From: Enterobacter sp. R4-368
Lineage (GTDB): Bacteria; Pseudomonadota; Gammaproteobacteria; Enterobacterales; Enterobacteriaceae
NCBI RefSeq assembly: GCF_000410515.1
Contig: NC_021500.1
Location: forward strand, 1,302,001 to 1,366,000
Reading direction: 5' to 3'
DNA: 64,000 nucleotides
Shown: positions 10,543-47,977 of the stretch, piece after piece
Layout of the letters: every line of letters begins with the position of its first letter
How positions within the stretch are numbered: position 1 is the stretch's first letter
Made by a program: the position numbers and the translations under genes
Notes under the pieces: model-generated
Database searches by the model: none
The model's input: only the letters and a program-made list of their open reading frames with translations
Told to the model about the DNA's origin: nothing

Positions 10543-10581
10543 GAAATCCCCTTGCTAATCAATAAGCAAGGGGATGCTAAT

Positions 10582-10947
10582 TTATTTATCACAGTCAAGC
10601 TTAACATCTAATATGGCTAAGCAACCTTCAATAAATCCTTCTGCTAACAGCATTTCGATACGGATCTGCTTTTCGCTCTTCTTCCTGTTCTTTGCCATCT
10701 GGCGCTTCGAAACCATATAGACGTAATGCCCGACCAGCAGGTGGTAATCGTAAGGTCGCTTCTTCATAAGACGAGCCATACAGCCTTCAATAATCAATCC
10801 ATCATTATCTGAGCACATCATTCTCGTCTTGCTCGATTGCGGAAGAAGCCCTTTAAACCCGGCAGCAATTGGTGAAAAGTCGACGTTGCATGAATCGCTA
10901 GCCGCCCACGCCCCCCACAGTTCCAGTACCTTTTGAATATCACGCAT
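10582..10947 (-). CDS. Phage antitermination protein Q
   Basis: 121-aa regulator of late transcription. The N-terminus MRDIQKVLELWGAWAA, the central YDYHLLVGHYV and the basic KRQMAKNRKKSEKQIR match the Q family of phage 82/933W-type antiterminators. Q loads on RNA polymerase at the late promoter and suppresses the terminator just downstream. It is the last gene of the leftward early operon; the late promoter should lie between it and the methyltransferase gene, a space now also occupied by the KAP gene. Start ATG has GGAGATG upstream. Confidence 0.85.
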   Translation of the reverse strand: MRDIQKVLELWGAWAASDSCNVDFSPIAAGFKGLLPQSSKTRMMCSDNDGLIIEGCMARLMKKRPYDYHLLVGHYVYMVSKRQMAKNRKKSEKQIRIEMLLAEGFIEGCLAILDVKLDCDK

Positions 10948-10961
10948 CAGTCATCTCCACT

Positions 10962-21395: not shown

Positions 21396-22586
21396 ATGGC
21401 CGCAAGACCTCGCAAAAGGGAAAACAGAAACCTTCCGGATCACCTGTATTTTGAAAAATCATCAGGTCAATATCGTTTTACTCTGATTACCGGGAAGAGA
21501 AAGCACCTTGGAACTGATCGCGTAATGGCTATAGCGATCGCCAGAGAATATAACAACCGACTCCGCCCGGAGTCAGTACCATCAATTGAAATCCTTGTAA
21601 GAGAATCCGGCGGAATAAATGGAGAGGCGCGCCCTTTTGCTGAATATGCACAGAAGCTTTTAGATCGCGCTATTAATGATGAGAAACCAGGAGGTGATAC
21701 GTTATCAGTTTGGCTAAATGATATTGAGAGGGTTAAAGATTATTTCAGAGATATTTATGCCTGTGATATCGAACTTGAGCATGTTAATGGATATATCAGG
21801 AAATATCATTCTGAGGCATCGGCAAATGTTCAAAACAGAAAAGTCAGCTTCTTGAAAAAATTATTCAGCTATGCAGTCGATGAATCGTTAATGATGGATA
21901 ACCCTGCTGAGCGTAAAAAAATGCGCCGGGTTGAATCGAAGGTACGTCGCCGACTATCGCTTAAAGACTATCTCAAAATTCACCAAGCCGCGCCACGGTG
22001 GTTGCAGACTGCAATGGATCTTGCACTGCAAACAACGCATGCACGACTAGAGGTTTCCCGGATCAGGTATTCAATTAAACAACCCAGCGAGGGTGTGTGC
22101 GGCTGCGTATGGTTTGCTGAGCCGCAGGGAGATATTTTGGGCACGCTCTACATCCATCGCCAGAAAGTACAACATAAAGAAGCTTCTCACGTTGCGATCC
22201 CCATCGGGCCAGTATTGAAGGATATTATCGAGCGTAGCCGGGATAACGTTGCCAGTCCGTATGTGGTTCACCGGCTTCCACTTAAGCGGAGTAATCCCAC
22301 CAGCAAGGAAGTACGCCACCCGTCACAGGTTGCGCCGGACTACCTCAGCCGTTCGTTCTCAGCATTAAGGGATCAGGTCGGTGTGGCCGCAACTTTGCCA
22401 GAGAAACAGCGCCCTACTTTTCACGAGATCAGGGCTCTGTCTGCATTTCTGTTCAATAAGCAGGGGATTGATCCACAAGGCAGGATGGCACACAGCGATG
22501 CGAAGTCGACAAAGATTTATACCGAGAATCATATCGATTGGGTCATGGTACCACATGGAGAAATTAACAAAAATAAAGCCTCATAG
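21396..22586 (+). CDS. int: Lambda-type tyrosine integrase
   Basis: 396-aa site-specific recombinase. N-terminal arm-binding domain (1-65), core-binding domain (about 75-175) and catalytic domain with R217 (THARLEVSR), H343-x-x-R346 (HEIR), H366 (MAHSDAKST) and nucleophile Y375 (KIYTENH). The H366-Y375 spacing equals that in lambda Int. All catalytic residues are present, so the prophage may still excise. The attachment site it uses is probably the proL 3' copy at 24.2 kb, 1.6 kb downstream and separated from int by two cargo genes. Confidence 0.95.
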   Translation: MAARPRKRENRNLPDHLYFEKSSGQYRFTLITGKRKHLGTDRVMAIAIAREYNNRLRPESVPSIEILVRESGGINGEARPFAEYAQKLLDRAINDEKPGGDTLSVWLNDIERVKDYFRDIYACDIELEHVNGYIRKYHSEASANVQNRKVSFLKKLFSYAVDESLMMDNPAERKKMRRVESKVRRRLSLKDYLKIHQAAPRWLQTAMDLALQTTHARLEVSRIRYSIKQPSEGVCGCVWFAEPQGDILGTLYIHRQKVQHKEASHVAIPIGPVLKDIIERSRDNVASPYVVHRLPLKRSNPTSKEVRHPSQVAPDYLSRSFSALRDQVGVAATLPEKQRPTFHEIRALSAFLFNKQGIDPQGRMAHSDAKSTKIYTENHIDWVMVPHGEINKNKAS

Positions 22587-22607: not shown

Positions 22608-22991
22608 CTAAGAGGCTTTAGGTTTGCTAATGTCAACCCATTTCGCAATCAATTTTTCAGCTGTTTTTATGGAGGTTTTAGAATCGTTGGCTGTAACTGT
22701 CGCATTTAACCGATAGTCAGAAATGATTCGCTGATCTTTTAATGCTTGTAAAGCCATGCCCAAACCTGTTAATTCAAGCTTGCTATAAGGCTCATTCCCT
22801 TTCCAAGAAGCTGTCATCAAATAATCAATAAGCCCCTGATGATTATCTTTAGGGCCATACTTAATGAATGGAAGGATATGATGATAGGCACCATAATAAG
22901 CTCTAGCCACAGCATTGCGATAGCCTATTTCATCGTTTCTGGTAACACAGTCTTTAGCAAACTCAAGAAAATCTGAACTACTGACCGGCAT
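22608..22991 (-). CDS. HEPN-like protein, second gene of a cargo pair
   Basis: 127-aa helical protein. The segment RNAVARAYYGAYHHILPF contains an R-x6-H motif (RAYYGAYH) of the kind that forms the RNase site of HEPN proteins, in a helical context with an N-terminal DFLEFAKDCV. The ATG at 22991 has a strong GAGGAGG site and overlaps the upstream gene by 14 bases. Together with its TPR-like partner it could be a toxin/antitoxin or phage-defence pair; no experiment is implied by sequence alone. AT-rich, between int and attachment site, a common cargo position. Confidence 0.6.
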   Translation of the reverse strand: MPVSSSDFLEFAKDCVTRNDEIGYRNAVARAYYGAYHHILPFIKYGPKDNHQGLIDYLMTASWKGNEPYSKLELTGLGMALQALKDQRIISDYRLNATVTANDSKTSIKTAEKLIAKWVDISKPKAS

Positions 22992-23748
22992 CAGCATCCT
23001 CCTCAATATTGCCTTTAAACCAAACGCTAAATTTTTTACCGACCAAATTATCGTTTTCTGCTAAGGAGAAAGCGATATCCAAATTCATATCAGACAATAT
23101 ATCAATGTCATCGCTGTTAACAAACATTATATATGAAGATGTTTGTTCCTCTGGGACGGAGAAAAATTCTAAAACTCTTGGTTTGACATGATATGCATCC
23201 ATCACGTCAACAACACGATTAGCCAGATCTTTATAATCCTCGTCAGTGATCCCAACAGTTTGTTTAAACTCGGTAGTATCTTTCAATGCTGAGGCTGCGA
23301 TCCTAGACATCTTTTCGCCCTCACTCTCATCTACAATCGAGATGAATTTATTCGCAAAATACAAGGCCTTATCAATATCTCCCATGAAAAGATTAGTTTC
23401 CCAAGCATGTCCTATCATGGTTCGCGAGCCGTATTGAGGCACTAATCGATTAACTAAATCCCGTGTTTCTCTAAATGTACCGTAGTCGTTGAGATAGACG
23501 ACGTAGTTTTGAGCAAAAATGTCACTATTCTGCTTTAATGATGCTTCAAAAAAATCAATAGCAATATCTTTTCTGCCGTACACGCCGTTCGCTAGTGCTT
23601 TGAGATAGTCTTCCGAGACTCTATCCTTTAATTTTTCTATGTCCTTGATATAACGATAAAATTCCATTTCAGTTATGGAAGATTTAGCCTGTAGCAGATC
23701 GATTAATTCGCTACCTATTTCGTTAGCTTTAAGTTCAGCCTGCGGCAT
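22978..23748 (-). CDS. TPR-like helical protein, first gene of a cargo pair
   Basis: 256-aa soluble, mostly helical protein. Segments such as DYLKALANGVYGRKDIAIDFFEASLKQNSD and GHAWETNLFMGDIDKALYFANKF have the size and residue pattern of tetratricopeptide-type helix pairs, giving perhaps three or four repeats; the acidic C-terminus (EEDADAG) ends within the next gene. It overlaps the HEPN-like gene and is transcribed first. A partner or neutralising role for the HEPN-like protein is my inference. No close family recognised. Confidence 0.55.
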   Translation of the reverse strand: MPQAELKANEIGSELIDLLQAKSSITEMEFYRYIKDIEKLKDRVSEDYLKALANGVYGRKDIAIDFFEASLKQNSDIFAQNYVVYLNDYGTFRETRDLVNRLVPQYGSRTMIGHAWETNLFMGDIDKALYFANKFISIVDESEGEKMSRIAASALKDTTEFKQTVGITDEDYKDLANRVVDVMDAYHVKPRVLEFFSVPEEQTSSYIMFVNSDDIDILSDMNLDIAFSLAENDNLVGKKFSVWFKGNIEEDADAGQ

Positions 23749-24189
23749 GAAAGTTCCTTCGAGTGAGAAGACACAGTTGCTTTAACTAGAGCAATCTTGA
23801 TTTGTTAGATTAGAGTACATGACAGTATGTGCAATAGCCAGACTGAAAAGTGCTATGTACTCAATTGTCAATGTAAATAATTTAAAAATGCTGATTTTTT
23901 CACACCACCTCCAATTTTATACTTACTTTTGTTGATAACATTGTTGACAAGAAAAAGTTATACACAAAAGTTAATCTTTGAAGCCTTTTAGATATGCTGA
24001 CAGGAAGTAGCTATTAACGAACCTTCCCTGCTTACTCTTAAAAAAATGACTTTGATAAAAAAGGTAAAACTGGGGGTTAAGTCATTGAAGTATATAGCGC
24101 GGATTTTGCTAAAAATGCACTGTTTGTATATACATACAAACAACTCGCAAAGCCAGATGAAGCAAGGGTTTGCCGGGTGTTAAGCCGTT
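23749..24189. other. Gap between cargo genes and the attachment site
   Basis: AT-rich, 441 bases, with no reading frame of note. It must hold the promoter of the leftward cargo pair. Short repeats such as GTTGATAACATTGTTGACAAG near 23931 and TTGTATATACATACAAACAA near 24123 (a near-perfect inverted repeat) could be integrase/excisionase arm sites or promoter elements. Confidence 0.4.
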
Positions 24190-24237
24190 GTCATGGGGTG
24201 TCAGGGGTCGGAGGTTCAAATCCTCTCGTGCCGACCA
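24190..24237 (+). other. Attachment site: 3' fragment of tRNA-Pro(GGG), proL
   Basis: 48 bases match the 3' part of enterobacterial proL from the anticodon arm through the T arm to the CCA end (GGAGGTTCAAATCCTCTCG then TGCCGACCA). The 5' half is missing, so this is not a functional tRNA; it is the displaced 3' end that marks the right boundary (att) of the prophage. The intact proL would lie beyond the left edge of the window. A hairpin terminator follows it, as behind a natural tRNA gene. Confidence 0.85.
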
Positions 24238-24280
24238 AATTACAATATGGTGTGGTTCGTTTCAGACCATAGACCTCGAT

Positions 24281-24780: not shown

Positions 24781-26826
24781 TCAATGCTTATCCAGGTTAA
24801 TAATATTATCAAACAGGGATAACGTTTTAACGTCATGGGTAGATAATACAATCGTTTTATCACTGGTCATTAAAGAGTCTAATGCCAGCATAGCACTTTT
24901 TTCATCGAGATTAGCGGTCGGCTCATCGAGCAAAATAATAGATTTAGATGAAAGTAATGCCCTGCAAAGCATCAATCGTTGTAATTGACCGGAAGAGAGA
25001 ACGGGATTACCTGGCGATATTTTAGTGTACAACCCTGCAGGCAAAGATGTAATCACCTCCAATAAACCAAATTTCCTCAACATTTCGCGGCAATCACGTT
25101 CATTAGCCTCTCCACCACTATACCAGACGATATTATCATAAATCGTGCCGTTAAAGACGATAGAGCCTTGTGGAAGATAATACACATTGGAATAAAACAG
25201 ATGCAGGTCATCTTTATTTATTTTTTGACCATCTATAATGAAATCACCGTTTCCTGGCTTATATAATCCAGCCAATAATTTCAATAAAGTGCTTTTCCCG
25301 GCACCGGAAGTTCCTATTACAGCGGTCCTGGAATGCAACGGTATTTCAATAGTTAAATTTTTAATAATTGCACTATCGGGTCCATAACCAAATTGTAGAT
25401 TCTGGACACAAACTGATTCTTTAATTGTATAATTCTGACGAGTAATGTCGATTTCTTTGTAAGATAACATATCTTTTAATCGCTCATCAGAGACCTTTTG
25501 CAGTTTCTGTGCAACGCAACATTGATAGAATTGATTGATGCTATCCATCGCAATCCGTCTGAAAAACCAAAAGGCAATCACATTTCCGTAAGATATATGT
25601 AATTCACTTATGCTATAGAATGAGATCCATAAAAACAACATTGAATCAATGTTACTCAGAAATGAAAATATTGCATTCTGTCTAATATCAGTTGAGCTAA
25701 CCTTTTTGTATCGATGAAACAACACTTCAAGTAAATGATTATACCTTCCAAGAATGCCAGTGCTTAGCTCACCAGACCTGATAGCCTGGATTCCATTTAT
25801 TGTTTCAAGATTAAATGTTTCAATATCCGAAACACTTTCCTCAAAGCTTTTTGCAAATGACTTTTTGATACCTGCAAAGTAATAACTAACGCAACCAAAA
25901 ATTGCCATAGTTCCGATTGAAAGGACCGACAAAACAACATTTAGCCATAACATTATACATAGAGTTATAATTGTTATAGTCAGTGCCTTATATTTATCAT
26001 TAAGTATTTTTTCCCTGTTCAGAATAGCCATTCCAATGGAATTAATCCGCTGATTAATATCAGCAGAAGATCGTCTTTCAAAGTAAGAAATATCTTTCTT
26101 CAATAACCGCTTAAACAATGAAGGCTTATATTTTGTTGCTGCATTTATCGCTGCGTTCAAACCATATTTGTTACTAATGTATTGCAGGAATGATATAAGA
26201 CAAAACAGCAGAATCATTCCCATAAACATAATATTGATCTGTTCATCTACAAAGAAATTTTGATCTTTCGATATAAATGAGAACAGCATCGGCATAATCA
26301 AAGAAAAGAGCGACAAAAATATTGCCAGTAGACATCTTTTCATGATCCCCGGGAAAGAGAGTTTTTCTAGCCACCCACTTTCACTTCTAATTTTACCCGA
26401 GCTTTTTTTATCCTTATATAATGATTCATCAAGGATCAAGCCAAACCCCGTTGCCGATAATTCAAGTTCTTCGGCCGAGATCATTAGCCTGCCAGTAGCA
26501 GGGTTTAAAACCTGAAAGAAGGCACCGTGATGACTATATACATAAACATAATGATTTCCGCCATAATGCAATATACATGGAACGGGTAAATATTGAATGC
26601 TACTAACATCAAATTTAACCGGTAAGGCCTCATACCCGTATGATTTAAGTATAGTAACTAATAAATCGAGGGACGTACCATCACCGCCACCCCATTTATC
26701 ACGTAAGTCAGTTAATGTAGTATTTTCACCTAAGGTATTGAGCATCATGCAAGCACATGCAAGCCCACACTCGGATATTTCTCCTTGATAAACCATTTCA
26801 GGAGAAGAATAATATTTCTCTTTCAT
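24781..26826 (-). CDS. C39-peptidase ABC exporter for double-glycine peptides
   Basis: 681-aa bacteriocin-type exporter. Residues 1-135 form a C39 peptidase that removes double-glycine leaders: Gln14 oxyanion, Cys20 nucleophile (SECGLACACMM), His92 (GGNHYVYV), and Asn108 where Asp is usual (VLNPATG). Residues about 150-440 hold six membrane helices. The nucleotide-binding domain has Walker A GTSGAGKST (505-513), signature LSSGQ (610-614), Walker B ILLDEP and H-loop STHD. Since Cys and His are kept, this is a processing exporter, not a degenerate HlyB-type domain. It is last in the operon and would export the 56-aa peptide encoded at its head. No strong ribosome-binding site is visible. Confidence 0.88.
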   Translation of the reverse strand: MKEKYYSSPEMVYQGEISECGLACACMMLNTLGENTTLTDLRDKWGGGDGTSLDLLVTILKSYGYEALPVKFDVSSIQYLPVPCILHYGGNHYVYVYSHHGAFFQVLNPATGRLMISAEELELSATGFGLILDESLYKDKKSSGKIRSESGWLEKLSFPGIMKRCLLAIFLSLFSLIMPMLFSFISKDQNFFVDEQINIMFMGMILLFCLISFLQYISNKYGLNAAINAATKYKPSLFKRLLKKDISYFERRSSADINQRINSIGMAILNREKILNDKYKALTITIITLCIMLWLNVVLSVLSIGTMAIFGCVSYYFAGIKKSFAKSFEESVSDIETFNLETINGIQAIRSGELSTGILGRYNHLLEVLFHRYKKVSSTDIRQNAIFSFLSNIDSMLFLWISFYSISELHISYGNVIAFWFFRRIAMDSINQFYQCCVAQKLQKVSDERLKDMLSYKEIDITRQNYTIKESVCVQNLQFGYGPDSAIIKNLTIEIPLHSRTAVIGTSGAGKSTLLKLLAGLYKPGNGDFIIDGQKINKDDLHLFYSNVYYLPQGSIVFNGTIYDNIVWYSGGEANERDCREMLRKFGLLEVITSLPAGLYTKISPGNPVLSSGQLQRLMLCRALLSSKSIILLDEPTANLDEKSAMLALDSLMTSDKTIVLSTHDVKTLSLFDNIINLDKH

Positions 26827-26841
26827 AATATTAAATAAAAC

Positions 26842-27783
26842 CTAAAAATTATAACTATAGAAGGATGTGTAGTGCCACAAAGTCCATTCATTGTTATATC
26901 TGCAGATACCCTGCTCAACTAACTCAGGCATTTTCTTTTCGATCTTGCGATGGTCAACGCAATCTAAAATATCTATATTTAAATTATTTTTATCATCCAG
27001 CTTGATACAGTAAAATAACGTCGACTGTTTTAGCAGGCGGCTAAAAACAGGAAGACCAGAGTGCAACTCACAGCTTCGCTCCAGCAATCTAACTGGAAAC
27101 GTTTTCATTTTTTTCTTTGTAAGCCTGGTTGTACATTCCGGAAGTGCATCAGGAAAGATAACAAGTTTTTTTTGATTCTCTACCAGAGAAAAAATAATAT
27201 CCTGCAAACTATTGCCTTCATTACCCTCCATTGCTTCAGGGTTGAATTGTTCAATAGAGATACCCTGCGAGTTATTATTTTGCTTTTCATGGAGACTTTG
27301 CATTGAATTGTGCACAGAGACAACGACCACCGGCTTTCCCGTAACCCGCGCGGCAATCACCGTCTGTAAAATATCCGAGACGGTGTGCAATGGCGCAAAT
27401 ATCAGATGAGAAGATATATTATTTTCATCAATATAGCTCCTTATTTTTCCTGCACAGGCTTCCAACTGCTCCAGCAGTTGTTTATTCTCATTAACCAGCG
27501 CATTCTTTAATATTTTTTGTCGCATCACACAAAAAAAATGGGTTGTGGTGCTTTGCAAACCAAGAACGTTGTAATGCGTTTGCCTGAAACTATTATTCAG
27601 GCCATGACTCTTACCAAATAGAAAACAATATTTCTCCGAAATATAGAGTAAAAATCGGTAATCTATATATTTAAAAAATAAAGCTATCAGCTTACTTTTT
27701 ATTGTTCTAAAAATGGTTATTTTCTTGTAATAAACACGAACATAACCTGACAATAACAAACTAAGAAATTCAAAGCCTGGCAT
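26842..27783 (-). CDS. LpxL/HtrB-like acyltransferase
   Basis: 313 aa. Features of the lysophospholipid/lipid A acyltransferase fold: an N-terminal hydrophobic/basic segment likely to hold it at the inner membrane, a catalytic-type APLHTVSD (His with an acid four residues later), VIFPDALPE in the place of the family's PD motif, and a C-terminal NNEWTLWHYTSF resembling the final P-E-Q-W-x-W region of LpxL. Similarity is distant. With ACP, ketosynthase, reductase and hydratase in the same operon, it most likely transfers the acyl product from ACP to an acceptor, possibly the peptide or a lipid. Start ATG 27783; a GTG lies one codon earlier. Confidence 0.65.
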   Translation of the reverse strand: MPGFEFLSLLLSGYVRVYYKKITIFRTIKSKLIALFFKYIDYRFLLYISEKYCFLFGKSHGLNNSFRQTHYNVLGLQSTTTHFFCVMRQKILKNALVNENKQLLEQLEACAGKIRSYIDENNISSHLIFAPLHTVSDILQTVIAARVTGKPVVVVSVHNSMQSLHEKQNNNSQGISIEQFNPEAMEGNEGNSLQDIIFSLVENQKKLVIFPDALPECTTRLTKKKMKTFPVRLLERSCELHSGLPVFSRLLKQSTLFYCIKLDDKNNLNIDILDCVDHRKIEKKMPELVEQGICRYNNEWTLWHYTSFYSYNF

Positions 27784-27825
27784 CACGCTCTCAACTGGTC
27801 TGTATTTGTGAATTATACCTGAATG

Positions 27826-28551
27826 TTAAGCGGTCATTCCGCCATCAAGCACAATTGTTTGGCCTGTCATATATTGACAAGGTTCACTAATCATAAATCG
27901 TGCAACCTTTGCCACCTCTTCCACAGAGCCAAACCGGCGCAGCGGGATTTGCGAACGTAATTTTTTCAAGGCATCTGGCGATAAGTTGTGCGTCATATCA
28001 CTGTCTATGACCCCCGGAGCCAGGCAGTTAACGCGAATACCAAATCGAGCAACTTCAAGTGCCAGTGACCGGGCCAGCCCAAAATGAGCCGCTTTGCTTG
28101 CACCATAAGCCGTTTGACCAATATTGCCTTTTATTCCCGTTACCGAACTCACAAGCAAAATGACACCATCGCCATTCGCCATCATTTCAGGCAGGAGATA
28201 CTGATTCCAATAAAAAATGGCATTGAGATTTGTATCAATCACATTCCGCCATTGTTCAATCGATTGACGAATATGCAGTTCATCCTGAGTGACCCCGGCA
28301 TTATGTATGACGGCTTTAGGCGGCCCATATCGATTTAACAAATCCTTCGCGACCGTTTCCACCTGCACAACATCACAGTTATCGCAAACCACATGCTCAA
28401 TGAAGGTCTTACTGGACTGATTATTTTCATCCGGGCTGGATTTTGTCGACCGAGAAGTGAATACAATATTATTGTCACTCCGTAATTCATTGACAATGGC
28501 TGAACCAATCCCGCGATTTCCACCTGTAACAAGGATCCATGAGTCACTCAT
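27826..28551 (-). CDS. FabG-like 3-oxoacyl-ACP reductase (SDR)
   Basis: 241-aa NADPH-dependent short-chain reductase. Cofactor motif TGGNRGIG (9-16), NAG (84-86), catalytic Ser136, Tyr149 and Lys153 (YGASK), and a C-terminal MTGQTIVLDGGMT as in FabG. It would reduce beta-ketoacyl groups on the operon's own ACP, encoded 18 bases upstream. It is a cluster-specific paralogue; the housekeeping fabG lies elsewhere in enterobacteria. Ribosome-binding site AGGTGA. Confidence 0.88.
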   Translation of the reverse strand: MSDSWILVTGGNRGIGSAIVNELRSDNNIVFTSRSTKSSPDENNQSSKTFIEHVVCDNCDVVQVETVAKDLLNRYGPPKAVIHNAGVTQDELHIRQSIEQWRNVIDTNLNAIFYWNQYLLPEMMANGDGVILLVSSVTGIKGNIGQTAYGASKAAHFGLARSLALEVARFGIRVNCLAPGVIDSDMTHNLSPDALKKLRSQIPLRRFGSVEEVAKVARFMISEPCQYMTGQTIVLDGGMTA

Positions 28552-28569
28552 TATTAATCACCTGAAATG

Positions 28570-28812
28570 CTAAGCTGATAAAACGGATGTACAAAACTCT
28601 TTAAGAGTAATGTCATTTGATTTCATTGCTGCTTCGAAATTTATAGTTATATTAAATTGCTTTTTAACCATTACCATCAGTTCTACATAGTCCAGGCTAT
28701 CTAAACCTAATTCTGAAATAGTCGTTTGCTCGTTTATCTCTTCTAAAGGAAGATCTTTTGCATCGGCAATAGTGCTTGCAATAGCGTTATAAAGTTCTGT
28801 GTACATATTCAT
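28570..28812 (-). CDS. Acyl carrier protein
   Basis: 80-aa carrier with the phosphopantetheine-attachment motif ELGLDSLDYVEL; Ser39 is the modified residue. Acidic and helical, typical ACP length. It overlaps the hydratase stop as ATGA. It differs clearly from housekeeping AcpP (for example the helix II tail VMVKKQF), so it is a dedicated carrier for the island's acyl chain. Activation requires a phosphopantetheinyl transferase, which is not in the island, so a host enzyme must supply it. Confidence 0.9.
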   Translation of the reverse strand: MNMYTELYNAIASTIADAKDLPLEEINEQTTISELGLDSLDYVELMVMVKKQFNITINFEAAMKSNDITLKEFCTSVLSA

Positions 28813-29606
28813 TTCCCCTGTGAGTTAATGGCAACTTTCAGTGTCACCGACATTTGCATGAGTGTATTTTCTTTTTCTTTTGCCGCCACCTGAACTTGAA
28901 TTAACCAGCCGTAATCTGCATCACCGGTTATCAATGGCCTTGCAATAGAGAGACACAAACCTTCAATTTTTTGTCCCTCTCTGTAAAACAAGGAAGAATG
29001 GCAATAGAAATCATAATGCGTTTGTAATACGTGTTCCTGCGACAACAGCGCTGATAGCGAATGCACGGGAGTACATTTATTTAAAAAATCGGCAGGAAAT
29101 AAATCCTTAGCCCTGAATAGTTCTCTGAACATTACTGAGGACAAAAAAACAGCATAATTTTTTTCTATGTCAGCAGGCCACAGTGCAACAACCTCATCCT
29201 GATATTCCTTCGACAAAACCCTTTCAGCAATAACATCGTTGATGGTTGGATAATTTGCCTGAGAAATAGTGCCGCGAATATGTGTGATACCGGTTGAGGA
29301 ATCAATCAATTTGAAGGTTGTCTTTGTTTCTCCATCATTGTGGCGTAAAGAGTACGTCGTGCCACACGATACCGGTTTTTCAAATTTGGCTGAGAACTTT
29401 ACCGGAGCAGAATGTGTTGCGCTAAAAATACCGGAATGATTAATCAGCTCATTTTGTACATCTGCCAGTACACGCATGCCATGCGCAACCAATGCTGTTT
29501 GATTCAGTTTAGCGACAGCAAGTAGATCAAAGTGTATCGGGTTGTAATCACCAGAAAAATTGGCCCAATGCTTTGCGTGAAAGCCATCATATGTCATGTC
29601 TGTCAT
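28809..29606 (-). CDS. MaoC-like (R)-hydratase/dehydratase, two hot-dog domains
   Basis: 265-aa protein. The N-terminal hot-dog domain carries the hydratase signature FSGDYNPIHFD (17-27) with catalytic Asp20 and His25, then the VAHGM motif. The C-terminal half looks like a second, non-catalytic hot-dog repeat. In the operon it supplies the dehydration step between the FabG-like reductase and further elongation. There is no enoyl reductase gene, so the chain could keep a double bond or use the host FabI. Stop and start codons overlap with both neighbours (ATGA). Confidence 0.8.
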   Translation of the reverse strand: MTDMTYDGFHAKHWANFSGDYNPIHFDLLAVAKLNQTALVAHGMRVLADVQNELINHSGIFSATHSAPVKFSAKFEKPVSCGTTYSLRHNDGETKTTFKLIDSSTGITHIRGTISQANYPTINDVIAERVLSKEYQDEVVALWPADIEKNYAVFLSSVMFRELFRAKDLFPADFLNKCTPVHSLSALLSQEHVLQTHYDFYCHSSLFYREGQKIEGLCLSIARPLITGDADYGWLIQVQVAAKEKENTLMQMSVTLKVAINSQGK

Positions 29607-30844
29607 AACGAGCGACCTATGACCAGAGCAGCATTTGTCCCCCCGAACCCAAAACTGAGATTCAGTACATTATCTACAACAGTCTGACGATGCTGGTTTG
29701 GAATGAAATCAAGATCACATTCTGGATCGGGGCGGTTCAGATTACGTGTTGCCGGCAGGATATTGTTTTCCAGCACCTTCAGACAGACAATGCTTTCGAA
29801 GCTACCTGCTGCAGCAATCAGATGCCCGCTGTATGATTTTGTACTCGAAACGGGGATCTCATATGCATACCGCCCGAAGACATCTTTAATAGACTGTGTT
29901 TCATTGAGATCGTTGAGCATGGTTGATGTTCCATGCGCATTTATATAACCAATTTCATTAGCGCTTAGCCCCGAATCAGCTAACGCTTTCTTGATAGTAG
30001 AAACGCGTGAAAGCTTATCCTGTGCAGGAGCGGTAAAATCAACTCCATCGGAAAAATTCCCGTATCCTTTAATTTCACCGAGTATGGTCGCCCCTCTTGC
30101 CAGCGCTGATTCGCGCTCCTCCAGACACAGGATAGCCGCGCCTTCAGATAAAACGAACCCCGAGCGGTCAAGACTGAATGGGCAAGAGGCTTTTTGGATA
30201 TCATGTTGTTCATGCGTTAACGCCTGAAGCACATCAATCATCCACACCGATGCATTTGATGTCAGTGATTCACTTCCACCGGCAAGCATCATGGTCATGT
30301 GCCCATTTTTAATTAATTCATAAGCCTCGCCAATAGCCATGCTCCCCGTGGCACATGCTGCTATCGGGGTATTTTGATACCCCCTCAATCCCCACATGAT
30401 GCTGCAGGCGGCCGTTGCGACGCTTGGCATTGCATGAAAGCAGCTAAACGGCGAGCCAACACCAACAAGTTTATAATCATCATAATTATGGTAGGCGTCA
30501 TCAATTCCCCCCCAGCCGGTGCCGACAATCGTGCCGCATTTCAGAGGGTCGTAGATATCGGCAGGTAGAGACTGGTTAAATGCCATTGCAACAGCTTCCT
30601 GCGCAGCCGCAAGACCAAGCCGTGCAAAACGAGGTAATTTCCGTCGAATAGAAGCAGGAACCCCCGTTAACTTAGGTTCATGCGCAATCAAGCCATAAAA
30701 TTTCGAGTTAATACTCGCATCCGTTTTATCAACGTACTGATAGCCTGTTTGGTAATCCACAATAGATTTCCAGCTTTCTTCCGCTGAGCTTCCCAACGGC
30801 GTAATCGCACCGTAGCCGGTGATAACAACGCGTCTATGTTCCAT
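29603..30844 (-). CDS. FabF-like beta-ketoacyl-ACP synthase
   Basis: 413-aa condensing enzyme with a Cys-His-His catalytic triad: Cys164 (ACATGSMA), His304 (NAHGTSTMLND) and His341 (YSGHLIAAAG), plus the C-terminal SFGFGGTNAAL. It elongates acyl-ACP by two carbons per cycle using malonyl-ACP. Full length for KAS II. The start lies two bases after the stop of the outer-membrane gene. As the only ketosynthase in the cluster it must work iteratively or perform one added condensation on a host acyl-ACP; no chain-length factor is present. Confidence 0.92.
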   Translation of the reverse strand: MEHRRVVITGYGAITPLGSSAEESWKSIVDYQTGYQYVDKTDASINSKFYGLIAHEPKLTGVPASIRRKLPRFARLGLAAAQEAVAMAFNQSLPADIYDPLKCGTIVGTGWGGIDDAYHNYDDYKLVGVGSPFSCFHAMPSVATAACSIMWGLRGYQNTPIAACATGSMAIGEAYELIKNGHMTMMLAGGSESLTSNASVWMIDVLQALTHEQHDIQKASCPFSLDRSGFVLSEGAAILCLEERESALARGATILGEIKGYGNFSDGVDFTAPAQDKLSRVSTIKKALADSGLSANEIGYINAHGTSTMLNDLNETQSIKDVFGRYAYEIPVSSTKSYSGHLIAAAGSFESIVCLKVLENNILPATRNLNRPDPECDLDFIPNQHRQTVVDNVLNLSFGFGGTNAALVIGRSL

Positions 30845-30845
30845 T

Positions 30846-32234
30846 TTAACTTTTTACCTTGCTGTTAAATTCACCACCACCGATTGATAATAAAAACTTC
30901 ATCGTAGAAGTTAGATAATCGTACTGACAATCGGCGTATGAAATTTTCTGGTTAAGAACATTGTCCTGAGAGTCCAGTAAGGTCTGAAGCGATATATAAC
31001 CAGACCTGTACTTGACTGTATTTATTCGCATCAGATTCTGAGAAATTGAGAGTGTCTTTTTTTGCATCTCAAGACCATATTCGGCTTTTTTTCTGGCATC
31101 TAAAGCGTTCTCTACTTCAGATAATGCATTGAGCACGACTTTTCTGAAGTCATTAACTGATAACGCGACAGCAATCTTTTCTTTTTCTAATTCAAAACTC
31201 AACTTTCTCCACTGAAGCGGTGGGAAAGCGGCCGAGATAGATTGTAATAAGGTTTGCTCGCTAAACCATTGTGTGAAAATAGTGCTCCCCGCCCCGATCG
31301 TCGCGCCCAGTGAGATAGAGGGAAAGAAGTTAATCTTAGCCAGATCATAACCGGTAATTGCTATTTTTATTCTGGATTCCGCGGCGCGTATATCCGGGCG
31401 CAGCGATATTATGTCCACCGATTTAAACAACGGCAGTTTGATATCCTGGTATTCACCAAGTCCTTTTTTTTCTTTCGGACGATCAATACTGTTTTTGTTA
31501 TAGACAATGGCCATGGCGTTACGCTCATTTTCCCTTTGGCTAATAACATTCCGCAGTTGTAACTCGCTTGAATAAATAGCTTGCTTTGCTAATAAGACAT
31601 CAGATCTCGCGCCTGCTCCGCTTTTATATTTAGCATTAACGACCAGATATGTAGACCTGGCGATCTCAAGCCGTTGTTTGTAAAACTCAATTTGTTCATT
31701 GAATTTAGCAATATTCCAGTAACTTTTGGCAATTGAATCAATGATAACCAACACAGTGTTTTGCAAATCTTCTTCACTGGCATCAATGTTCCATTTACCC
31801 TGCTCTCTCGTCCTCGCTAACTTGCCCCATAAATCAAGCTCATAGCTCATTGACAAAGAAGAGCTGTAACTCTCTGTTGAAGGAGTACCTTGCAATAAAG
31901 TGCGGTTATTACTTGCACTCGCTGACATATTAAAATCAGGAAAAAGATTCGTATTTATTTCGCCTGAATCCAGCTTGCTTTTTAACAGATTCAACGCGGC
32001 CGCATGCAAATCGTTGTTATTCCTCAGCGTATCATTAATGATCGATGATAACAGGGGGTCATTGAATACACTCCACCATGCTTCATTGGTGACAGCATTT
32101 TTATAACCTGTTTTCTCGCTTTGCCCCGCCGTTGGAAATTTTATCTCTGGCGTATGATATTCAGTTTTCAACATACTGCCGCAACCTGTGCATAATAAGC
32201 AAAGCAAAAATAATGATGTTTGTCTGAACTTCAT
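30846..32234 (-). CDS. NodT/TolC-family outer-membrane efflux lipoprotein
   Basis: 462 aa. Signal peptide SLFLLCLLCTGC with lipobox CTGC, so the N-terminus is lipidated, then two homologous outer-membrane efflux repeats: beta strands (FNMSASASNNRT, SLGATIGAGS) separated by long coiled helices of the periplasmic tunnel. It would form the outer-membrane channel for the MacAB-like pump and/or the C39 exporter, in place of host TolC. Translationally coupled to the macB-like gene (ATGA). Confidence 0.85.
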   Translation of the reverse strand: MKFRQTSLFLLCLLCTGCGSMLKTEYHTPEIKFPTAGQSEKTGYKNAVTNEAWWSVFNDPLLSSIINDTLRNNNDLHAAALNLLKSKLDSGEINTNLFPDFNMSASASNNRTLLQGTPSTESYSSSLSMSYELDLWGKLARTREQGKWNIDASEEDLQNTVLVIIDSIAKSYWNIAKFNEQIEFYKQRLEIARSTYLVVNAKYKSGAGARSDVLLAKQAIYSSELQLRNVISQRENERNAMAIVYNKNSIDRPKEKKGLGEYQDIKLPLFKSVDIISLRPDIRAAESRIKIAITGYDLAKINFFPSISLGATIGAGSTIFTQWFSEQTLLQSISAAFPPLQWRKLSFELEKEKIAVALSVNDFRKVVLNALSEVENALDARKKAEYGLEMQKKTLSISQNLMRINTVKYRSGYISLQTLLDSQDNVLNQKISYADCQYDYLTSTMKFLLSIGGGEFNSKVKS

Positions 32235-34171
32235 TTGTAACCTAATGCTTTAGCAGGCGTATAAGATGATGCTTTCTTCGCCGGAACGTAACCGAATACG
32301 ATGCCGATGAAACATGAAAACGCACAGGCAATAACAATCGGTGTTATTGTCAAAACCATGTCAAATTGGTTCGTCACTAGAGGGAATATAATTCTGGCTA
32401 AACTCGTTAAAGCCACGCCGACGGCTCCCCCTAAAAAACAGATAAATACAGACTCGATTAAAAATTGCCTTTTAATATCAGCAGGACTCGCGCCGACAGA
32501 AAGACGAATGCCAATTTCATGAATGCGCTCGGTCACTGAAACAAACATAATGTTCATAACGCCCACTCCACCAACCAACAGCGAGATGGTTGAAATAGCT
32601 ACCGTGAGCAGTTTCATTGAGGTAGAAACATTCTCGATCATTTCTGCCACGGACTCATTCGTGACGGTAAAGAAGTCCTTTTTACCGTGTGAAAACGTGA
32701 GCGCTTGCTCTATTTTCTCTCTTATAAGCTCAACCTGAGCCGGATCTTTGGCCCGAACCTGGATGGCTTCAAAAGGTATCAGACCCGTAATCCGGTTTAT
32801 GTACGAGGTCCAGGGTATCCAGGCTTTTAATGTCGTCTTTTCCGATGCCGTCGAGATATCTTTGATCACCCCGACCACCTCAAATGGGTAGCCGGAAATC
32901 TGCAAATATTTTCCTACCGCTTCATTCGAGGAACCGAATGCGGTTTCTGCAAGCCTTGAGTCAATAACGGCAACAGCATCACTGGCGGTTATATTGTCAG
33001 TTTCAAACAAATGGCCAGCTAACACTTTATCGGCATCGAAGTATTCCTTACTGATACCGGTAAGCGCAGCGTCAATATCACTATCACCACTATTTATCGT
33101 CGCTGTTGATGTTATCACCGGTGAAATTTTACTTTCCGGTAATAGCTCGGTAAGCATATCAACATCATCTTTTTCAAGAAGCTTATTGCCGGGATCTGGC
33201 ATTGACTTCCAGCTGGTGCCTGGCCTGATTTCAATGGTGTTGGTGGCTAATAAATTCATTTCTTTCATAACACGATGGTGTGCGCCTTCGCTTATGGCAA
33301 TAGACATAAGCACTGCAAAAACCCCAATAATGACACCCAGCATTGACAGAAACGCTCGTATCCGGTGGCCGTTCAGTGCTCTAAACGCAGTTCTGAATGC
33401 TTCGACTATCCCAAACATCATGCCAAGCGGATCCTTTTCAAGTACCCTGGTGCATGCTGCCTGGAGGTCACTGGTTGATACGCTGCTTTCGTCTTTCACG
33501 ATCCGGCCATCATTCATGTGTATGATTCGGTCGGCCTGTGACGCAATATTGCTATCATGCGTAACAAGGATAATCGTTTTGCCCTTTCGGTTAAGCGTCT
33601 TGAATATGTCCATAACCTGGCACCCCGTCACACTATCCAGAGCACCCGTCGGTTCATCTGCCAGAATAATGTCGGCATCATTCATTAGCGCTCTGGCAAT
33701 GCTGACGCGCTGCTGCTGTCCACCAGAAAGTTGGTTTGGGTTAAAATCAACGCGATCGCTTAAGCCGACCGACTCAAGTATTTTTTCCGCACGTTCATTT
33801 CTATTTTTATAGTTTTTTGAGGTGTATTGTGCGGGTAAAGCGACATTCTCTTTCGCGGTTAAGTAAGGCAAAAGATTGTATTTCTGGAATACAAAACCAA
33901 TATATTTATTTCGTAACTCAGCAACTGAGTCTGCTGTTAACACCGATACGTCAATGCCGTAGAATGACATCTGCCCAGCGCTAATATCATCTAAGCAGCC
34001 AATGGTATTCATCAGCGTGGTTTTACCCGAGCCTGATGGCCCGACGATAGCGATAAACTCGCCTTTTATAATGGTTAGCGATACGCCTTTCAGTGCAGAA
34101 ACGATTTCTCCACCACTCTCATATCGTTTATAAACGTCTGATAAAATAATATATTCATCGGTGCGGCTCAT
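32231..34171 (-). CDS. MacB-like ABC transporter (fused ATPase and permease)
   Basis: 646-aa transporter, about the length of E. coli MacB. N-terminal ATPase: Walker [10 protein letters not shown] (near 42-50), signature LSGGQQQR, Walker B IILADEP, H-loop VTHDS. Then four membrane helices (one near 270, three near 525-640) around a large periplasmic domain. MacB-type mechanotransmission pumps move substrates from the periplasm out through an OM channel, so its substrate would be periplasmic: the processed peptide, or a lipid product. It lies one base after the adaptor stop. It could also serve as self-protection. Confidence 0.88.
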
Positions 34172-35329
34172 TTAGTCGCCACCCTTTATTATAATATCGC
34201 CTATTTCTAATCCTTTAACGATCTCAGTAATTTTCGCGTTCTTAATCCCGGTTTGTACGCGTCTTTTTTCTATTTTATTATTGTGAAGTACATTGACGAT
34301 ATAATGATCTTTGCTAACCATTTCACCCAGGTAGTTTGTCGGAACGGCTTTAACGTTTTTTTTCTCTTCAACAACTAAATAAACCTGTACCGACATAGCT
34401 GGCTTTAAAACATGCTGATCATTTACTACGTCAAAACTTCCATTGTAATAGGTAGCTGTTTTCTTACTCCCGGCAGAATCACCTGAACTGCTCTTCATAT
34501 CGTAAAGCATTTCTTCTGGTATTTGCTGTATCCTGTTTAGCATCCCTTTATAACGGGTGTCAGGAGAAGCCGTGACAGTAAACCATAAAGGCATACCAAC
34601 CCTGGTTTTCAAAATATCCATTTCTGATATTTTGATATTTACAGTCATGATATCCAGATTAGCCACCACCAGAATTGTCGGCGCACTCTGTGATGAAACA
34701 ATAGTCTGCCCTTCCTGCGTTAATATACCCAAGACGACGCCATCTATGGGCGACGTAATGCGCGTGTACGCTAAGTTTGCCTGAGCAGTATTTAACTTGA
34801 CTCTGGCCTGAGCTATTTGAATTTCATTTATATCTAGCTGTTCTTTATCACTTTCATATTTTGTTTTCGCCGTCTCGAGGTCGCTCAGCGTTGTGGCGTC
34901 ATCCAGTGACATTTTCTTTTGTCGGTTATAATCGCTCTTAGACTGTTTAAGCGACAGTAACGTGATCTTTTTTTGCGCTAATGCATTATCCAGCTCAGAT
35001 TTAGCACTATCGACATCATTTTGTGCAAGCGTCGGATCGATCTCAGCCAGCAACTGGCCTTTTTTAACTGCATCACCTTCCTTCACATGCAGCTTATTGA
35101 GCCGTCCATTAACCTGCGCCCCGACACTAACTTGCTCGTTAGGTTTTAGAACGCCGGTCGTGGTAATCAGTCGATCGATATCAGAGTAGGTGACGTGAGA
35201 ACTTTCTTTCTTCGTATTTTCAGTAACGTCACTTTCCGAAAGAAATACGCTATTAACCGCATATACAGCAGGAACTATAGCTACTAATAAAGTCAGAAAA
35301 AAAGGTTTTATCTTCACACTGATGACCAT
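34172..35329 (-). CDS. MacA-like periplasmic adaptor (HlyD family)
   Basis: 385-aa membrane-fusion protein. One N-terminal membrane anchor (KPFFLTLLVAIVPAVYAV), a split lipoyl domain (VGAQVNGRLNKLHVKEGD ... ITSPIDGVVLG), a long coiled-coil hairpin (about 110-195) and beta-barrel domains, as in MacA. It links the inner-membrane exporters to the NodT-type channel. No strong ribosome-binding site precedes the ATG, and a hairpin directly upstream may limit expression relative to the peptide gene. Confidence 0.85.
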   Translation of the reverse strand: MVISVKIKPFFLTLLVAIVPAVYAVNSVFLSESDVTENTKKESSHVTYSDIDRLITTTGVLKPNEQVSVGAQVNGRLNKLHVKEGDAVKKGQLLAEIDPTLAQNDVDSAKSELDNALAQKKITLLSLKQSKSDYNRQKKMSLDDATTLSDLETAKTKYESDKEQLDINEIQIAQARVKLNTAQANLAYTRITSPIDGVVLGILTQEGQTIVSSQSAPTILVVANLDIMTVNIKISEMDILKTRVGMPLWFTVTASPDTRYKGMLNRIQQIPEEMLYDMKSSSGDSAGSKKTATYYNGSFDVVNDQHVLKPAMSVQVYLVVEEKKNVKAVPTNYLGEMVSKDHYIVNVLHNNKIEKRRVQTGIKNAKITEIVKGLEIGDIIIKGGD

Positions 35330-35332
35330 TAT

Positions 35333-35355
35333 AAAAGGCCAGAAACTGGCCTTTG
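35333..35355 (-). terminator. Weak terminator/attenuator between peptide gene and exporter operon
   Basis: Minus-strand AAAGGCCAG, TTT loop, CTGGCCTTTT and ATAAT, about 35 bases past the peptide stop and immediately before the macA-like start. The short T-tract predicts partial termination, which would give more peptide message than machinery message. Confidence 0.6.
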
Positions 35356-35387
35356 TTTTAATTTTACTGCTTAATTAATATTGTGAA

Positions 35388-35558
35388 TTACTTCTCGTCA
35401 CAACGTTTTTCCAAACCATTTTTACCTGATTCACGACGGAACCAGCCATACACGCCGTTAGGACGGTTATCAACAAAATAACATTCACCGTATGGGCCAA
35501 CCATTCCGCCCACAACTGCTTTACTTTCTTTGGATTCTAATACTGTTGCTTTAAACAT
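35388..35558 (-). CDS. Candidate double-glycine secreted peptide (microcin-like precursor)
   Basis: 56-aa peptide, first gene before the island's exporter operon. The first 18 residues (MFKATVLESKESKAVVGG) follow the double-glycine leader rule seen in microcin V: Leu at -12, Glu at -8, Val at -4, Gly-Gly at -2/-1. Cleavage would release a 38-residue peptide beginning MVGPYGECYF, with two cysteines (mature positions 8 and 35) that could form a disulfide, three tyrosines, one tryptophan and a charged tail ending RCDEK. It lacks the Gly/Ala-rich hydrophobic body of classical class II microcins. AAGGGA at six bases supports this ATG; the frame opens further upstream without such a site. No immunity gene is evident. 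Confidence 0.65.
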   Translation of the reverse strand: MFKATVLESKESKAVVGGMVGPYGECYFVDNRPNGVYGWFRRESGKNGLEKRCDEK

Positions 35559-35684
35559 TTTAATTCCCTTGTGTAATAGTGCTTCAATTATTTGCAAATC
35601 GTTCATTTCTGAACAGGATGAAATATATCGCATTACCCCAGGATCTTTTAATCAATAAAAAATCAAAAGCATCTTTAAAAATTT

Positions 35685-35905
35685 AAAGCGCTTTTTTGAA
35701 ACTTTTAAATTTTTTTTGAAGTTTTTAAAACCCTTTTTGAAGCTTTAATGCGCTTATTTGAAGTTTTTAAAGCGCTTTTTGAAGTTTCAGTGTGTTTACT
35801 TGAAGGTTTTAAAACGCTTTTTGAAGTTTTAGTACGTTTATTTGAAGGTTTTAAAGTGCTTTTTGAAAATTATAAAGCATTCGTGAAAGGTATAAGTGCT
35901 GTTTT
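35685..35905. repeat. About ten degenerate tandem repeats with 21-bp period
   Basis: Units resemble GCGCTTTTTGAAGTTTTTAAA, repeated roughly ten times with substitutions, alternating GAAGTTTTTAAA and GAAGGTTTTAAA forms. 21 bp is two helical turns, so the TTT/AAA tracts are phased and the DNA should be curved. Read rightward from an ATG at 35748 it also encodes 67 codons of heptads like LFEVFKA. It lies just upstream of the peptide gene, in the divergent direction. Confidence 0.75.
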
Positions 35906-36386: not shown

Positions 36387-36408
36387 AATCCTCTCGTACC
36401 GCCCCAAA
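36387..36408 (+). repeat. Degenerate copy of the proL 3' end (possible att)
   Basis: AATCCTCTCGTACCGCCCC differs at two positions from the corresponding proL end at about 24218-24236. As a direct repeat it would bracket the island, suggesting that the island entered at the same tRNA gene before or alongside the prophage. Confidence 0.5.
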
Positions 36409-36563
36409 AACCCATAAGAAACCAATCCATTGCGGTTGATTTTGTTATGTCTGCGCTATGCGCAAGAGAACAAACAGCCCGAGATAGATGCCCTCCCCCA
36501 TCATTGGTGATAGTGATACTGCGGCCAACAAAAACTCACTAATCCATCAGCGGGGGAGTGTAA

Positions 36564-45972: not shown

Positions 45973-47139
45973 TTAGAACTGGTAAACCAGGCCCAGAGCA
46001 ACAACGTTGTCTGTGGAAATGCCAGCGGCTTTGGTGAAGTCGTTGTCGTCCAGCAGGTTGATTTTGTAATCAACATAGGTGGACATGTTTTTGTTGAAGT
46101 AGTAAGTCGCGCCAACATCGATGTATTTCAGCAGATCCTGGTCGCCGTAGTTTTCAACACCCGTACCGGAAATATCTTTACCTTTAGACTGCAGGTAAGC
46201 AATGGACGGACGCAGACCGAAGTCAAACTGGTACTGAGCAACCACTTCAAAGTTCTGCGCTTTGTTGGCAAAACCATAAGCTTTTGCACCAGATGCGCCG
46301 CCAAAACGAGTCGCGTTATAAGTCTGAGAGTATTGTGCCGCCAGGTAGAGGTTGTTGGCGTCATATTTCAAACCACCGGAGTAAACCTCAGCGCGATCGC
46401 CTTCACCATAGATCGGATAAGAGCCAGTGACGTTACCAGCAGAATCGGTGGTGGTGTAAACACGGTTGTTTTGATCGTAGGTACGTTTCGAGGAGGACAT
46501 TGCACCACCTACACTAAAGCCTGCTCCCAGATCGTAAGTTACAGAGGCACCATAACCGTCACCATTCTGTTTCAGAACACTGCGACCAGTAGAGTCTTCA
46601 CCACTTACGCTACCGTTTTTACCCTGGTATTGCAGAGCAAAGTTCAGGCCATCAACCAGACCAAAGAAGTCAGTGTTACGGTAGGTTGCAACGCCATTAG
46701 CACGGGATTGCAGGAAGTTATCAGCACCGTAGGTATCGCCACCAAATTCCGGCAGAACATCGGTCCAGGAGGTGACATCGTAAATTACGCCGTAGTTACG
46801 ACCATAGTCGAAAGAACCCGCATCAGCTACGCGGATACCGGCGAAAGCCAGACGAGTCCATGCCTGGTCGGTAGAGGTTTCCGTGTTATTAGCCTGAACG
46901 TTGTATTCCCACTGGCCGTAACCCGTCACCTGGTCATTTACCTGTGTTTCGCCTTTGAAGCCAAAACGTACGTAGGTCTGATCGCCATCAGCGCTGCTGT
47001 CGTCAGAGAAATAGTGCAGACCGTCTACTTTGCCGTACAGATCTAATTTGTTGCCATCTTTGTTATAAACTTCAGCCGCATTTGCTGCGCCTGCTACCAG
47101 CAGAGCCGGTACCAGGAGGGACAGAACTTTAACTTTCAT
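45973..47139 (-). CDS. ompC: Outer-membrane porin OmpC
   Basis: 388-aa trimeric 16-stranded porin. Sec signal [19 protein letters not shown], mature start [16 protein letters not shown], constriction loop L3 with [13 protein letters not shown], and the C-terminal YQF needed for BAM recognition. The loop after about residue 180 differs from E. coli, as expected for phage and antibody targets. Codon use is that of a highly expressed gene. GAGGG precedes the ATG. Expression is activated by OmpR; MicC-type sRNAs and other controls cannot be assessed here. The divergent micF gene upstream represses ompF. Confidence 0.96.
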
Positions 47140-47463
47140 TTTATTAACCCTCTGTTATATGCATTTTTATTGCCACTGCTTGCCGATTAACCCTCTAATC
47201 AGCTGGCAAAATCATTGTGCTTAAAATAGAAAAATAATCCAACGAGAATATGATACGAAAACTTTGAAGATGTTTCATACGTAATGATAGATGTTTCATT
47301 TTGTAAATTTGAGGGAACTTTTTTTCGCACAAATAGCTAAACAAATGCGCACAAATAATCAAAAAATAATAAAAAATCATTTAAAAACAAAATAATAAGT
47401 AAAACACAAATCATAGCACTGAATGCAAAACCATAATCTTCAATCGCAACTAAAATAACTGAC
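47140..47463. promoter_or_regulatory. ompC-micF divergent promoter region
   Basis: 324 bases, very AT-rich, without a gene. It contains the ompC leader and, by analogy with E. coli, the OmpR sites shared by ompC and micF (A/T-rich segments with ACA/AACA repeats around 47395-47460). I cannot place individual OmpR boxes with certainty. Confidence 0.6.
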
Positions 47464-47556
47464 GCTATCATCATTAACTTTATTTATTACCGTCATTCGA
47501 ATCTGAATGTCTGTTTACCCCTCTTATAACCGGATGCGTCGCATTCGGTTTTTTTT
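47464..47556 (+). ncRNA. micF: MicF antisense sRNA
   Basis: The segment from GCTATCATCATTAACTTT to the final T-run is nearly identical to E. coli MicF: conserved 5' end that pairs with the ompF ribosome-binding site, middle stem GTCATTC/GAATGTC, and the terminator CCGGATGCG(TCG)CATTCGG followed by nine T residues. Divergent from ompC, as in E. coli. It lowers OmpF synthesis together with Hfq. Confidence 0.93.
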
Positions 47557-47977
47557 TACCTTTCCTTACGCAACTTGAATAATTATTTAGATATAATAAC
47601 TATTTGTAACGACTATTAATTAATCAATTACCATGCCGGATATTTCTCATTGACGCATTCACGAAATTAATGGTTTGTTATTTATCGCGTTCTTTTTGCA
47701 ACCAAACGGTAAATATATGTACAATTTTTCTTGGCTGTACATATTTGCCACTGCGTTTAGTCAATATGCCTATCCCCATGTTTTCGAGACTGAAACGGGA
47801 AAGAGAGTCTGGAAATTCACTCATTAACCGATATACTGCCTGCTGTACACTGCTCTGCAACACAACATCTACACGTTCGCCGCATGTTACAGGCGGTTAT
47901 TACGGCATGGCAGCAACATTGTCTCAGCGAGCGCTTAGTATTTACAGCAGTGTTGTCATAACGGGTTCCACACAAGA
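47557..47977. promoter_or_regulatory. rcsD upstream region
   Basis: 421 bases between micF and rcsD. A rightward frame (47670-47981) overlapping the rcsD start has poor protein character and no ribosome-binding site. The AT-rich part 47560-47720 should hold the rcsDB promoter; no further gene or RNA is recognisable. Confidence 0.5.

Follow-up and report, generated by a model that had tools for sequence, protein, structure and literature searches.

Introduction

Among described systems, the Aat/dispersin (Aap) system and CexE of pathogenic Escherichia coli send a small acylated protein through a MacB-like exporter and deploy it with fimbriae under AraC regulators; the Aat/dispersin system relies on a Sec signal and an Lnt-like acyltransferase, AatD. 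Class II microcins have an immunity gene beside the precursor and a CvaA/HlyD-type adaptor for their C39 exporter. Goadvionins, selidamides and lipolanthines are fatty-acylated ribosomal peptides made with GNAT-type or polyketide synthase/fatty acid synthase-hybrid chemistry. MacAB-TolC exports disulfide-bonded periplasmic peptides such as enterotoxin II, and aryl polyene clusters bring together a ketosynthase (KS), a ketoreductase (KR), a dehydratase (DH), an acyl carrier protein (ACP) and an LpxL-like acyltransferase. The locus in this study, an operon referred to here as the cassette, combines features of all of these: it lies in a 64,000-nucleotide stretch of Enterobacter sp. R4-368 (NC_021500.1, positions 1,302,001 to 1,366,000; the whole stretch is called the window) and encodes a double-glycine peptide together with acyl synthesis genes, an acyltransferase and two export systems.

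As in the dispersin and CexE systems, the cassette has an acyltransferase, a MacB-like exporter with its own outer-membrane factor (OMF), and links to fimbriae and AraC-type regulators, and its small exported product would likewise be acylated. It differs from Aat/dispersin in having a double-glycine leader and C39 peptidase rather than a Sec signal, a predicted PatA/LpxM (PatA/LpxL) fold rather than an Lnt-like acyltransferase, and a dedicated ACP/KS set. The double-glycine leader and C39 ABC exporter are shared with class II microcins such as MccV, but the only adaptor is of the MacA type, acyl synthesis genes and MacAB-OMF are added, and inspection of the window locus revealed no immunity gene. 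With goadvionins, selidamides and lipolanthines the common ground is a ribosomal precursor, a dedicated lipid supply and what would be an acyl transfer, whereas the PatA/LpxL-fold enzyme, the mini-synthase without enoyl reductase, the C39 exporter and MacAB-OMF set the cassette apart. A periplasmic Cys-containing peptide would be passed to MacA-MacB-OMF much as enterotoxin II is to MacAB-TolC, although here the exporter is a dedicated copy, its substrate would be delivered by C39, and acylation genes are present. Aryl polyene clusters also jointly encode KS, KR, DH, ACP and an LpxL-like acyltransferase, whereas the cassette has a single KS and ACP, plus the peptide and the C39 exporter. By analogy, this pattern appears to resemble dispersin/CexE more than a microcin, and the product of the cassette is probably a small disulfide-closed peptide, in all likelihood acylated, that is exported to act at or outside the cell surface.

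Gene content and recurrence

Ten tightly packed co-directional genes occupy positions 24781-35558 of the window on the minus strand; most of them overlap or almost touch, several with an overlap of 4 bp (Table 1). The first-pass annotation had given the genes these same identities and this order, and both stand; its count of nine becomes ten with the peptide, and its end at 35633 is that of an 81-aa open reading frame (ORF), the 56-aa peptide starting at 35558, preceded by 'aaggga' and separated from the MacA gene by 58 bp. Domain matches firmly identify MacA, MacB, the NodT-type OMF, KS, ACP, FabG and the C39-ABC protein. In comparisons with two other Kosakonia genomes, K. pseudosacchari L085 and K. 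quasisacchari L087, all ten genes have ratios of nonsynonymous to synonymous substitution rates (dN/dS) of 0.10-0.28, with 0.14-0.20 for the peptide gene, which, together with the recurrence of the operon in many genera, argues for more than chance. A chance ORF as the origin of the peptide is ruled out by this purifying selection and by homologues at similar positions in 62/66 loci.

Table 1. Features of the operon and its borders, in positions of the window.
Feature	Position	Strand	Remarks
tRNA-Pro(ggg) end, 51-bp copy	24189..24239	+	one border of 12-kb insertion
C39-peptidase ABC exporter	24781..26826	-	Gln14, Cys20, His92, Asn108
LpxL/PatA-fold acyltransferase	26842..27786	-	H134-x3-D138, F211-P212-D213; predicted fold
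FabG-like ketoreductase	27826..28551	-	Ser136/Tyr149/Lys153
ACP	28570..28812	-	DSL motif
MaoC-like hotdog dehydratase/hydratase	28809..29606	-	Asp20, His25; domain match weaker (1e-8)
FabF-like KS	29603..30844	-	Cys164-His304-Lys336-His341; Trp111 at FabF acyl-pocket position
NodT-type OMF	30846..32234	-	TIGR01845 above cut-off
MacB-type ABC exporter	32231..34171	-	PRK10535 7.7e-177 (below model's cut-off); MacB_PCD, FtsX above theirs
MacA-type periplasmic adaptor	34172..35329	-	PRK11578 MacA 2.8e-75 (below model's cut-off); RND_mfp above cut-off
Precursor peptide, 56 aa	35388..35558	-	leader MFKATVLESKESKAVVGG; core 38 aa, 2 Cys, K-x-G motif; homologues found
Degenerate tandem repeat, 42/84-bp	35682..35877	.	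5' of peptide gene
Degenerate match to tRNA-Pro border region, 82.6%	36387..36455	+	probable other border, next to mqo

Two overlapping sets of loci were compared, namely 35 places in 295 genomes of the family and 66 named loci from 84,980 species genomes (one genome per species). The LpxL-like protein is matched in 34 of the 295 family genomes, and the nine enzyme and export genes are all matched at 34/35 family loci, the remaining one being without FabG, and at 60/66 named loci. Of the six named loci that fall short, five are from Serratia (L124, L125, L133, L136 and L138), with KS and ACP present and MaoC and FabG missing; the sixth, from Pseudomonas, has none of KS, ACP, MaoC and FabG in the stretch examined. 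The latter, P. fluorescens L105, has the acyltransferase, C39, MacAB and OMF genes and three double-glycine peptides with two Cys each.

The genes follow one of two arrangements. The window type, peptide-MacA-MacB-OMF-KS-MaoC-ACP-FabG-LpxL-C39, is found in Kosakonia, Cedecea, Mangrovibacter and a Serratia plasmid; all other loci have the DUF4762-type order, peptide-(DsbA)-LpxL-C39-MacA-MacB-OMF-KS-MaoC-ACP-FabG. The acyltransferase gene directly precedes that of the C39 exporter in both.

The acyltransferase is also encoded on 14/72,556 plasmid records, among them ten from E. coli and two from Salmonella; the nine-gene stretch is present on all ten E. coli plasmids, and one Salmonella plasmid copy is interrupted. 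A KS-FabG piece of an E. coli plasmid is matched in 9/5426 E. coli genomes. Near-identical DNA of the window operon was found neither in plasmids nor in E. coli genomes, a DNA search of E. coli genomes with one DUF4762-type locus gave no match, and in an acyltransferase alignment search of 369 sampled genomes of the class the window's own protein was the single match. The distribution is patchy and mobile, conjugative plasmids included. Nor is the locus an isolated island curiosity, since the cassette recurs across Enterobacteriaceae, their relatives and plasmids; an isolated Kosakonia island is likewise ruled out by its recurrence in many genera and on plasmids.

The precursor peptide

That the peptide is linked to the cassette is strongly supported. 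A double-glycine peptide lies 5' of the cassette in 62 of the 66 named loci (searches with and without a K-x-G requirement), so that related clusters do not consistently lack one, and the first-pass view of the peptide as part of the cassette is borne out. Run as a control on 2.6 Mb of sequence from the same loci, the K-x-G-requiring pattern gave three matches. By reading, the 5' peptides of all 62 loci carry K-x-G, and the three Pseudomonas L105 peptides are without it; these are of a different kind, and L105 is one of the loci outside the 62. As expected of a fatty-acylated ribosomally synthesized and post-translationally modified peptide, there is therefore a ribosomal precursor with a recognisable leader and core at these 62 loci.

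Most of the aligned peptides (34/40) match Pfam DUF4762 (PF15959), a family of unknown function; the window peptide matches no Pfam family, DUF4762 included. Among the 295 family genomes, DUF4762 occurs in 28, all of them within the 34 that have the acyltransferase (Fisher p ~1e-33, with relatives not being independent), and in none of the 261 searched genomes without it. Extra copies away from the cassette were seen at G078:C52:79446-79634 and G070:C4:116314-116496. On plasmids, a 73-aa peptide query matches 12 of the 72,556 records, and these are precisely the ones from E. coli and Salmonella that encode the acyltransferase; on one of them (CP070400) the peptide is ~45 kb from the operon. 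The DUF4762 profile gave no match above the cut-off on eight plasmids and weak matches on four, from which the E. coli plasmid peptide was identified. The Salmonella plasmid peptides likewise combine a double-glycine leader with four Cys and the sequence D-K-Y-G.

The cores are Cys-containing and variable. An AlphaFold2 prediction (pLDDT, the predicted local distance difference test, 73.3) gives three beta strands and places the conserved D-K-x-G in a turn. The fold was dropped as a lead, there being no PDB match at E<=0.001, and a PDB sequence search with the peptide gave nothing useful.

In the DUF4762-type arrangement a membrane-anchored DsbA-like protein with CxxC is encoded (PF01323 in 4/4 tested). 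Of 58 peptides with four or more Cys, 57 are accompanied by it, and the locus of the remaining one (L089) keeps a fragment of the gene; none was found at the six loci with 2-Cys peptides. The DsbA-like gene, which is absent from the first-pass annotation, thus tracks Cys-rich peptides.

An acylated microcin, that is, an exported acyl peptide that kills related bacteria, was the earlier reading of the locus. The peptide within the cassette and the kept motif residues of its enzymes (see below) agree with the acylated part of that reading, and a double-glycine leader with a C39 exporter, variable Cys-containing cores and a patchy, mobile distribution including conjugative plasmids would all suit a microcin, for which self-protection by MacAB or by a lipid change is possible. 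The word 'microcin' is nevertheless weakened. At the window, ORF inspection revealed no immunity gene, the peptide being followed after the 58-bp gap by MacA and preceded by repeats with no clear gene. In the DUF4762-type loci the ORFs of >120 aa before the acyltransferase are the DsbA-like gene, although a small immunity ORF below that size is possible. No immunity gene recurred among upstream flank genes of at least 90 aa, smaller ORFs and most downstream flanks lying outside the screen. Together with the adhesin linkage of the DUF4762-type loci and plasmids described below, this leaves a killing role doubtful.

Enzymes and predicted acyl chemistry

The catalytic residues of the cassette enzymes are almost invariant. 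The four KS residues of Table 1 are kept in 70/70 aligned proteins, S-Y-K of FabG and the Asp and His of MaoC in 65/65 each, the ACP DSL motif in 69/70, the acyltransferase H, D, F-P-D and T in 70/71, and Q-C-H-N of the C39 peptidase in 69/71, the other two being alignment gaps. The third C39 residue, usually Asp, is Asn in the cassette exporters.

Pfam gave no useful match for the LpxL-like protein of the window alone; PF03279 (Lip_A_acyltrans) is matched by 18/46 of its aligned relatives. A PDB sequence search also gave nothing useful, but all 14/14 PDB structure matches (E<=1e-3) to its AlphaFold2 model (pLDDT 82.8) are PatA or LpxM, and the protein is therefore predicted to have the PatA/LpxM (lipid A-type) fold. 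Its linkage to the peptide gene, with this predicted fold, provides the dedicated acyltransferase encoded with a precursor that is characteristic of fatty-acylated ribosomal peptides. Several public records label the protein 'ABC transporter', perhaps a name carried over from the neighbouring gene.

Two features of the synthase genes bear on the acyl group. KS Trp111, present in 70/70, aligns with a residue that differs (Ile or Phe) between the solved FabF entries 4ls5 and 4ls6, a position in the acyl pocket at which bulky residues shorten the accepted chain, and we infer from it that the acyl group built by the KS would be short. The operon has no gene for an enoyl reductase, which makes an unsaturated or hydroxylated product likely unless host FabI helps.

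The peptide might instead be exported unmodified, with the KS, ACP and LpxL-type genes making a separate lipid or altering lipid A, for instance as protection. LpxL relatives acylate lipid A from ACP, and LpxM is among the fold matches, which would fit. The acyltransferase, however, has HX3D in 46/46 aligned proteins and lacks the HX4D/E motif of lipid A-type acyltransferases (HX4E in LpxL); its gene stands directly before that of the C39 exporter in both arrangements, DUF4762 was found in none of the 261 searched genomes without it, and the Pseudomonas locus keeps it with three double-glycine peptides where no mini-synthase was found in the stretch examined. A separate lipid thus appears unlikely, and acylation of the peptide is plausible from the gene set.

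Taking the genes, their linkage and co-occurrence, the catalytic residues and the predicted fold together, maturation of an acylated, exported peptide may be pictured as follows. The precursor would be made with its double-glycine leader, and a short or unsaturated acyl group would be built on the dedicated ACP by KS, FabG and MaoC. At the membrane, the PatA/LpxL-fold enzyme could then move this group from ACP onto the peptide, where the conserved K-x-G Lys and the newly formed N terminus are possible acceptor sites. The C39 exporter would cleave after Gly-Gly and deliver the core to the periplasm, where disulfides would form, helped by the dedicated DsbA-like protein where the core has at least four Cys, and the product would leave through MacA-MacB-OMF.

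Association with fimbriae and the putative surface role

With 34 usher queries, 27 of the 32 DUF4762-type loci proved to have an usher, and with it a chaperone-usher operon, no more than 10 kb away; the usher has the same direction in 26/27 and lies upstream at some loci and downstream at others. With 3-25 ushers per genome, ~1.7 of 32 loci would be expected, a count and expectation that treat related loci as independent. Like the DsbA-like gene, this fimbrial linkage is absent from the first-pass annotation. Of the five misses, two have no usher in ~19 kb on each side, one has an usher at 12 kb and two are on short contigs. Pfam confirms the two ushers and two chaperones tested. On plasmids, adhesins are near the peptide on three overall: both Salmonella plasmids carry an F4 (K88)-like fae operon at a distance of 1-3 kb from the peptide, and on one E. 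coli plasmid an HMW-type adhesin is nearby. Linkage of many copies to fimbriae suggests a surface role rather than, or besides, killing rivals, and by analogy with dispersin of enteroaggregative E. coli the peptide most likely acts at the surface in concert with adhesins.

Regulators are also found here. A LuxR-like gene lies between the fimbriae and the peptide, just upstream of the latter, in 21/66 named loci (a GerE match below the cut-off in one tested, none in another), and AraC-type regulators are present on the two E. coli plasmids tested, with an AggR annotation on one more and helix-turn-helix or AggR annotations on others. These regulators could point to a signal, a pheromone coordinating adhesin expression, but no sensor recurred as a fixed component and nine dedicated genes would be costly for a signal, making this very unlikely.

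Several observations weigh against an acylated surface peptide as the general product of the cassette. No peptide was found in Chimaeribacter L094 (and its plasmid copy L154) or Rahnella L129, a K-x-G scan of the peptide-less loci giving nothing credible, and L132, also without a peptide, is cut by a contig edge. The Serratia and Pseudomonas loci that lack synthase genes indicate that not every cassette depends on the mini-synthase. Some copies (L060/L089, L081, L123, L149 and Salmonella L155) have genes that seem disrupted or incomplete, with interrupted reading frames in at least the family loci L060 and L081. Usher queries gave no match in the stretches around window-type loci, and four of the seven E. 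coli and Salmonella plasmids searched are without an usher, so the surface role rests on the DUF4762-type arrangement and is not universal. The acyl group on the peptide is itself a prediction.

A more specific version of the acylated surface peptide is offered tentatively. It may represent a new class of ribosomal lipopeptide in Enterobacteriaceae sensu lato and on E. coli and Salmonella plasmids, in which the PatA/LpxL-fold enzyme would place a short, unsaturated or hydroxylated acyl group, made by a Trp-gated KS with an ACP of its own, on the Lys of the K-x-G turn of a disulfide-closed peptide, forming a surface coat with fimbriae. If true, this would provide a function for DUF4762. The broader reading of a probably acylated, exported peptide already offers that family a concrete way of being matured and exported, and it predicts a lipopeptide in species of Klebsiella, Yersinia, Serratia, Citrobacter, Enterobacter and Kosakonia as well as on E. 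coli and Salmonella plasmids, tied to fimbriae in many.

As a separate observation, the Rahnella L129 cassette comes after a 2834-aa ORF, autotransporter-like by reading, and a 261-aa ORF.

Insertion site and neighbouring DNA

The operon is placed between mqo and the 51-bp copy of the tRNA-Pro(ggg) end. In Kosakonia pseudosacchari L085 the block sits directly between mqo and tRNA-Pro(ggg), and in a genome of the same genus (G268) the mqo-to-tRNA distance is ~120 bp, from which the operon region can be recognised as a 12-kb insertion. It is of low GC content. The tandem repeat 5' of the peptide gene is possibly regulatory.

Window positions 1-24239, together with G000:C2:1275483 onward, hold a further and larger insertion that contains an integrase-like gene (21396-22586). 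It is flanked by the intact tRNA-Pro(ggg) on one side and by the 51-bp copy at 24189 on the other, and the operon thus adjoins a tandem, separate element. At the end of this neighbouring element (22608-23748) are two overlapping unnamed ORFs of 256 and 132 aa. Elsewhere in the window, the GC content is also low (0.37-0.45) at 8000-11000 and 46000-49000, possibly reflecting other acquired DNA.

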